This document shows, one piece after another, positions 49,701 to 50,496 of a stretch of 64,000 nucleotides of DNA. Source of the stretch: Candidatus Methylomirabilota bacterium (GTDB lineage: Bacteria > Methylomirabilota > Methylomirabilia > Rokubacteriales > CSP1-6); the NCBI GenBank assembly GCA_035709005.1, contig DASTFB010000077.1, forward strand, positions 1-64,000, in the 5' to 3' direction. Each line of letters opens with the position of its first letter. The stretch's first letter is position 1. The notes beneath the pieces were generated by a model, which had not been told where the DNA came from, ran no database searches, and worked only from the letters and a program-made list of their open reading frames with translations. The position numbers were made by a program, and so were the translations under genes.

Positions 49701-50426
49701 CTACCGGCGGTCCTCGGCGTCCGCGGTGCCAAGCCAGAACGGACTGCTCTTGCCAATCTGCTCGAGGTACGCGCGACGCTCCGCCGCCCGGCGCGGGTAC
49801 CAGGTCGAAAGGTAGTTCGCGTCCAGCATGTGGCGCCGCGACTCCGTGCCGAAGAAGCCGGCGAGGGCGGCCAGCGGAATGAAGCCCTCCTCGGCGCGCG
49901 GCTGGAACGCCGGCCACCGGCGGGCGTGGTCTTCCGACCGGAAGAGGTTCATGCCCGTTCAGAGAAACGGTGGCCGGCCGCGGGACGGCCCGAAGCCGTA
50001 GTTGAGGTGCCCGACCACGCCGGGCGGGTCGACACCCACGAGGCGACCATCGCGCATCTCCACGCGCACCGGGTCGCCGCAGTCCAGACACGGGGCGTCG
50101 ATACGAACCGTCTGGCCGGGAAAGAGCCACGTCACCGAGGTGGCCTCGAATCCACACTGCGCGAACCAGTGCTGGACGCCGCGCACGTTGATCCGGTACT
50201 GCGTGGGCAGGTTGTTGAGCGGCGGGAACGAGGCGATGTAGTCCGTATCGGGATGCAGCCAGCCGATCGGGTAGGCCTGCATCACGTCGTGGAGCAGCCG
50301 GCGCCCCTCCTCGACGCTCAGCCCCAGCGCGCGAGCCAGCTCGGCGTAGTGGGGCGCTCGGCCCGCCTCGATGAGACCGCCCATGATGCGCTGGAACATC
50401 CGGTCCATGAGCAGCGGATCGCCCAT
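49701..50426 (-). CDS. MerB-like (organomercurial lyase family) protein, candidate selenoprotein with in-frame TGA
   Basis: Two reading frames (50426-49962 and 49952-49701) share one frame and are split only by TGA at 49961-49959. Read through, they give 241 residues: a winged-helix N-terminus (APHYAELARALGLSVEEGRR, about 24-43), then a MerB core. Cys91 in WFAQCGFE matches E. coli MerB Cys96 and Glu94 the position of Asp99; the TGA is codon 156 and aligns with MerB Cys159, which precedes HFFAS (here NLFRS). A SECIS-like hairpin follows. MerB enzymes protonolyse carbon-mercury bonds using these two thiols. The ATG at 50426 has AAGGGAG upstream. The alternative is two truncated proteins. Confidence 0.75.
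49921..49961 (-). promoter_or_regulatory. Candidate bacterial SECIS element directly after an in-frame UGA
   Basis: On the minus strand the UGA (49961-49959) is followed by a stem-loop: lower stem CGGGC (49957-49953) with GCCCG (49925-49921), an internal loop, then a perfect six-base upper stem UCUUCC (49945-49940) with GGAAGA (49935-49930) closing a GGUC loop (49939-49936). The loop starts 20 bases after the UGA, close to E. coli fdhF, whose SelB-bound loop is also GGUC. The bulged U of E. coli is not seen; it is not universal. Confidence 0.75.
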
Positions 50427-50468
50427 CGCTCTATCTCCCTTCACTGTGGAGACACCCGGCCGACAGAG

Positions 50469-50496
50469 AGAATATCGCCACGTTCGAGGAGGTCAA
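50469..50496 (-). promoter_or_regulatory. Sigma-70-like promoter for the MerB-like gene
   Basis: On the minus strand TTGACC (50496-50491), a 16-base spacer and TATTCT (50474-50469). It points at the ATG at 50426 and would give a leader of about 35 bases with AAGGGAG before the start. It is divergent from, and adjacent to, the promoter at 50509. Confidence 0.45.

Follow-up and report, generated by a model that had tools for sequence, protein, structure and literature searches.

The window analyzed here is a 64,000-nt stretch of contig DASTFB010000077.1 (GCA_035709005.1) from Candidatus Methylomirabilota bacterium (Rokubacteriales, CSP1-6). A first-pass annotation had proposed that two open reading frames separated by a TGA form a single MerB-like gene with selenocysteine (Sec) at a catalytic cysteine position. 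Both frames lie on the minus strand, on which the annotation was silent, and they do constitute one gene: with its only internal TGA read as Sec, the frame encodes 241 residues with Sec at position 156. The features of the locus are as follows.

49701..50426, minus strand: MerB-like selenoprotein gene, 241 codons plus TAG stop, predicted Sec at codon 156
50424-50426, minus strand: ATG start of the MerB-like gene
49701-49703, minus strand: TAG stop of the MerB-like gene
50444, minus strand: alternative in-frame GTG start of the MerB-like gene
50154..50156, minus strand: codon for Cys91, equivalent to MerB Cys96; TGA/Sec in double-Sec relatives
50145..50147, minus strand: codon for Glu94, equivalent to MerB Asp99; proposed proton donor
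50079..50090, minus strand: C-x-x-C motif, Cys113 (equivalent to MerB Cys117) and Cys116
49959..49961, minus strand: TGA codon 156, read as Sec, equivalent to MerB Cys159
49930..49945, minus strand: candidate bacterial Sec insertion (bSECIS) hairpin UCUUCC-GGUC-GGAAGA, 6-bp stem
50435..50441, minus strand: ribosome-binding site AAGGGAG, read from the sequence
50469..50496, minus strand: weak sigma-70-like promoter match, TTGACC-16-TATTCT

The gene had also been credited with its own promoter and ribosome-binding site. The latter is present, 8 nt from the ATG; the promoter is a single sigma-70-like match (mean of 0.0 in shuffled sequences), which is weak evidence. Of nine genes checked in the window, eight have TGA as their regular stop, indicating no general change of the genetic code.

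Decoding of UGA156

The genome that carries the gene encodes tRNA-Sec, selA, selB and selD, all scoring above cut-offs. Contig 64 carries both tRNA-Sec and selA, separated by 1.3 kb; selB and selD map to contigs 94 and 87, respectively. The selD match itself (G000:C87:189561-190505, L063) contains a single in-frame TGA, a feature shared with known SelD proteins that contain Sec. selA was also present in all five hosts of relatives (records titled Chloroflexi, Actinomycetes, Deltaproteobacteria and Burkholderiales); within the phylum, selA is so common (83 of 95 genomes) that its co-occurrence with the gene carries no information.

Relatives of the protein are encoded at 17 loci from named records, the majority of them Candidatus Rokuibacteriota, and all 16 that cover the site have TGA there; the seventeenth (L022) ends short of it. 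Further relatives emerged when we extended the search to 95 genomes of the same phylum and to the phyla of L026 (400 genomes) and L023 (395 genomes). Among genomes of the same family, 22 of 57 had a match, some of them fragmentary. UGA156 was retained in every site-covering member of the clade, spanning records titled Rokuibacteriota, Deltaproteobacteria, Actinomycetes and Chloroflexi, and cysteine at this position was found in no clade member. Elsewhere in the superfamily, natural cysteine-containing relatives align at the UGA column, as is characteristic of selenoproteins. A second TGA noted in five genomes (G007, G056, G026, G042 and G030) proved to be the terminal stop, leaving one in-frame TGA in each. 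The pN/pS ratio was 0.25 upstream of the UGA and 0.32 downstream, the latter indicating that coding continues past it.

We examined the candidate bSECIS hairpin, which starts 13 nt past UGA156. Published limits call for an apical loop of 3-9 nt with a G in its first two positions, located 16-37 nt after the UGA, a stem of 4-16 bp and a minimum free energy of -7.5 kcal/mol or lower. The hairpin has a 4-nt loop (GGUC) at 19 nt, a 6-bp stem and a folding energy of -16.9 kcal/mol for a 44-nt stretch. On its own it is only modestly unusual, a comparable hairpin with a 4-nt loop following 0.9% of the TGAs in the window. The single-sequence fold z-score was likewise modest, from -0.29 to -2.26 depending on the stretch chosen, and the case for the hairpin accordingly rests on comparison. 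Across the superfamily, the stem is complete, with all six pairs, in 77 of 79 distinct UGA-containing sequences and in 0 of 21 distinct cysteine-containing ones; the related sequences in these counts are not independent events, and the tree requires at least six changes between UGA and Cys at the Cys159 site. One cysteine-containing relative (L099) encodes the same FFRSED peptide, but its TCC and GAG codons break the stem. Compensatory stem changes occur in L179 (U-A to G-C) and L158 (C-G to U-A). In the alignment, codons 161, 162 and 165 are invariant; a fixed codon is seen at none of the 35 other conserved residues. We regard this comparison across the superfamily as decisive for the predicted Sec-directing role of the hairpin. 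An Rfam scan of the window returned nothing at gathering scores; we did not count this against the hairpin because bacterial SECIS elements are too diverse. Apart from this gene, only two weak candidates for a hairpin-linked in-frame TGA turned up in a scan of the window.

Taken at the level of sequence, all tests run very strongly support reading TGA156 as Sec, and we predict with near certainty that UGA156 of the MerB-like gene encodes this residue. The first-pass annotation had named three observations that would speak against Sec, namely homologues with neither Cys nor Sec at the site, missing machinery and a sequencing error; each was pursued and none did so.

MerB fold, ligand positions and predicted double-Sec relatives

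The protein belongs to the MerB superfamily, scoring 54.4 bits against Pfam MerB (PF03243; cut-off 27, E=1.6e-14). All 11 PDB matches at E<=0.001 were MerB entries, placing it in the MerB fold. An AlphaFold model built with 14 homologues had a mean pLDDT of 83, falling below 50 at residues 147-154, directly before Sec. In MerB, Cys96 and Cys159 hold mercury and Asp99 handles protons (PMC4525700). By phmmer and profile alignments and solved structures, residue 156 aligns with the catalytic cysteine of MerB and MerB2, as the annotation had placed it; its hand alignment around the TGA was correct except that a one-residue gap is required. Alignment to solved MerB structures put Cys91 on Cys96 and Glu94 on Asp99, again as first read, and Cys113 on Cys117. 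The canonical signature Cys96/Asp99/Cys159 is thus replaced by Cys/Glu/Sec, and the protein falls short of the NCBIfam equivalog cut-offs for canonical MerB (28.2 and 24 bits against 193 and 200). Across the relatives, the positions equivalent to Cys96 and Cys159 are always Cys or Sec and position 94 is acidic throughout; within the clade the Asp99 position is mostly Glu and the additional C-x-x-C is invariant. A second PF03243 match in the same genome (contig 23) was below cut-off, resembled an unrelated ATPase-type gene and was set aside.

The clade containing the protein had an SH-aLRT of 99 in a quick tree of 134 columns in which many forks are open. Its sister group (L187-L191) has Cys96/Glu99/Cys159, lacks the second cysteine of the CxxC and appears to represent the cysteine version of the Sec clade. 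In several clade members the Cys96 position is also TGA (L023, L025, L026 and L048). Genomes with this feature number 22 of the 395 in the "deltaproteobacterial" phylum of L023 and 3 of the 400 in the phylum of L026, and some Chloroflexi members share it. A second hairpin, GCUGGC-GGUCU-GCUGGC or a variant, with two G-U pairs, follows this UGA in 30 of 30 distinct sequences, compared with 2 of 82 sequences with Cys96 at the corresponding place; among Cys96 members of the clade itself, 2 of 20 have it. In these double-Sec relatives, both mercury ligands are predicted to be replaced by Sec. Both replacements are predicted in most deltaproteobacterial and some Chloroflexi members, and one in Rokubacteria. 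The lineage of the window gene, with Cys at 96, is nested inside the clade, and the tree needs at least five changes at this position; reversion from Sec to Cys at 96 in this lineage is plausible.

Two double-Sec MerB-like domains occur in fusions, one with a class III adenylate/guanylate cyclase domain (L025:5001-6188) and one with an AAA ATPase domain (L026:5004-6557).

Gene context and possible function

No mer genes lie beside the MerB-like gene, and no conserved gene partner was found in Rokubacteria or beside the double-Sec genes. The Rokubacterial neighbors encode an amidohydrolase, acetamidase, LigB dioxygenase, luciferase-like monooxygenase and solute transporters, and include no metal genes. 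MerA scored above cut-off in 1 of 57 genomes of the family, which is not the genome carrying the window; merA is likewise missing from about half of the merB genomes in the literature (PMC8261052). In other Rokubacterial genomes, matches to MerA-like/pyridine-nucleotide disulfide reductases have one or two in-frame TGAs (among them G051:C77:745-2106 and G052:C127:14620-15984) and are possible further selenoproteins. By eye only, short frames adjoining the MerB-like gene in two relatives (L016:3381-5014 and L018:3359-4998) resemble UGSC-like and AhpD/CMD-like selenoproteins.

The annotation had offered a distinct organomercurial lyase or a mercury sensor as possible roles. The nearest reading, in our view, is a Sec-containing lyase acting on organomercurials or other organometals. 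In this scheme SelB and Sec-tRNA would decode UGA156, guided by the downstream hairpin. Within the MerB-like fold, Cys91 and Sec156 would then serve as paired soft-metal ligands, with Glu94 as the nearby acid. An organomercurial or similar organometal would be bound through Sec156 and Cys91, its carbon-metal bond protonated with the help of Glu94, and the metal passed to cellular thiols. The gene, the Sec machinery, the hairpin, the conservation, the fold family and the ligand positions come from the data; the identity of the metal, cleavage of the bond, the proton donor and the release route are inferred. The MerB family and fold, the presence of Cys or Sec at both ligand positions and the invariably acidic residue at position 94 support a lyase. 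Glu in place of Asp99, the two fused relatives and the MerB and SaoL scores below cut-off count against it. So do the lack of mer genes and of a conserved neighborhood and the missing above-cut-off MerA in the genome; these, with the rarity of MerA in the family, also argue against a textbook resistance role. On balance, we consider lyase activity on organomercury or a similar organometal somewhat probable, and hold the full account, a Sec-containing MerB-superfamily protein that binds and cleaves such compounds, with the same modest confidence.

A sensor or binding module, in which the selenolate and thiol hold organomercury, Hg2+ or another soft electrophile for signaling or storage without cleavage, is unlikely. 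The cyclase and ATPase fusions favor sensing in at least some members, and both the orphan status of the gene in every context seen and the Glu at the Asp99 position fit this idea; however, most members are stand-alone proteins that retain the acid and both catalytic ligand positions of MerB. More doubtful still is a selenoenzyme that uses the MerB scaffold in general catabolism for a non-metal reaction such as redox chemistry or cleavage of a different carbon-heteroatom bond. The catabolic and transport genes nearby and the extra invariant C-x-x-C point in this direction, but the neighborhood is unconserved and hence says little, and the Sec/Cys swaps fall precisely on the two metal ligands. 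Finally, although TGA ends most checked genes in the window and the hairpin alone is modest, it is very improbable that TGA156 ends translation as an ordinary stop, or reflects a sequencing error or pseudogene lesion, leaving the downstream frame untranslated, since the same TGA recurs in independent assemblies from several phyla, the downstream protein is conserved under purifying selection and the hairpin is tied to UGA and lost in cysteine homologues; on TGA conservation, pN/pS, the frozen hairpin codons and the use of TGA stops, we rejected these explanations together with an altered genetic code.

Returning to the lyase, we tentatively extend it to the clade, whose members, with Sec in place of a mercury-binding cysteine, may be selenium-based organomercury or organometal lyases outside the mer operon, the fused forms acting as sensors. 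The affinity of selenium for mercury is discussed mostly as a cause of toxicity. Sec at one or both ligand positions of a MerB fold would instead point to enzymatic selenium-mercury or selenium-organometal chemistry, and cleavage of carbon-mercury or similar bonds by means of selenium may occur in nature. The family is spread over bacteria of soil, groundwater and sediment, and annotation hides its genes by truncating them at the UGA, which would affect merB surveys that predict methylmercury demethylation. With natural Cys/Sec pairs available at the same residues, the advantage conferred by selenium can be tested directly.

Comparison with known MerB-type proteins

The first-pass annotation was not aware of a described Sec-dependent MerB, a view that does not hold. 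SaoL (NF040728), the MerB-like organometallic lyase of the Sec-assisted organometal (SAO) system, is a selenoprotein with a CU motif and one Sec (PMC13188914, PMC9312934), and "organic mercuric lyase MerB2" appears in a list of predicted prokaryotic selenoproteins (PMC7435645), where the comparison is by listed name only. A Sec-MerB as such is therefore not wholly new. In the literature searched, whose coverage is incomplete and does not include the primary description of SaoL, we found neither a Glu99 Sec clade nor a two-Sec MerB. Like SaoL, the window protein is a MerB-like selenoprotein, and it matches the SaoL profile weakly (34.2 bits against a cut-off of 140; relatives, 33-87 bits). Unlike SaoL, it has LUTG rather than a CU motif, no clade member has Cys before Sec, and no SAO-type neighborhood was seen at the gene. 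The profile match stops before Sec156.

With MerB (PF03243; PDB 3F2F, 3F0O; MerB2, 5C17), the protein shares the fold, the profile, the equivalents of Cys96 and Cys117, an acidic residue at the Asp99 position and alignment of Sec156 with Cys159. It differs in having Sec for Cys159, Glu for Asp99 and the extra Cys116, in lying outside a mer operon, in its identity of ~20% (structure alignment) and in scoring below curated MerB cut-offs.

UGA at the Cys159 position also occurs in lineages of Rokubacteria (L096, L101-L108, L110-L121), of other Methylomirabilota (L088, L090-L093, L122) and of the phylum of L026 (L142-L146 and others). The L096-type group is absent from the window's own genome; its close relatives L097 and L099 have Cys159 and no hairpin. 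The L096, L088 and L142 groups resemble the window protein in having a hairpin built to the same plan after the UGA, and differ from it in keeping Cys96 and Asp99, so that they combine the canonical MerB residues with a predicted Sec159.
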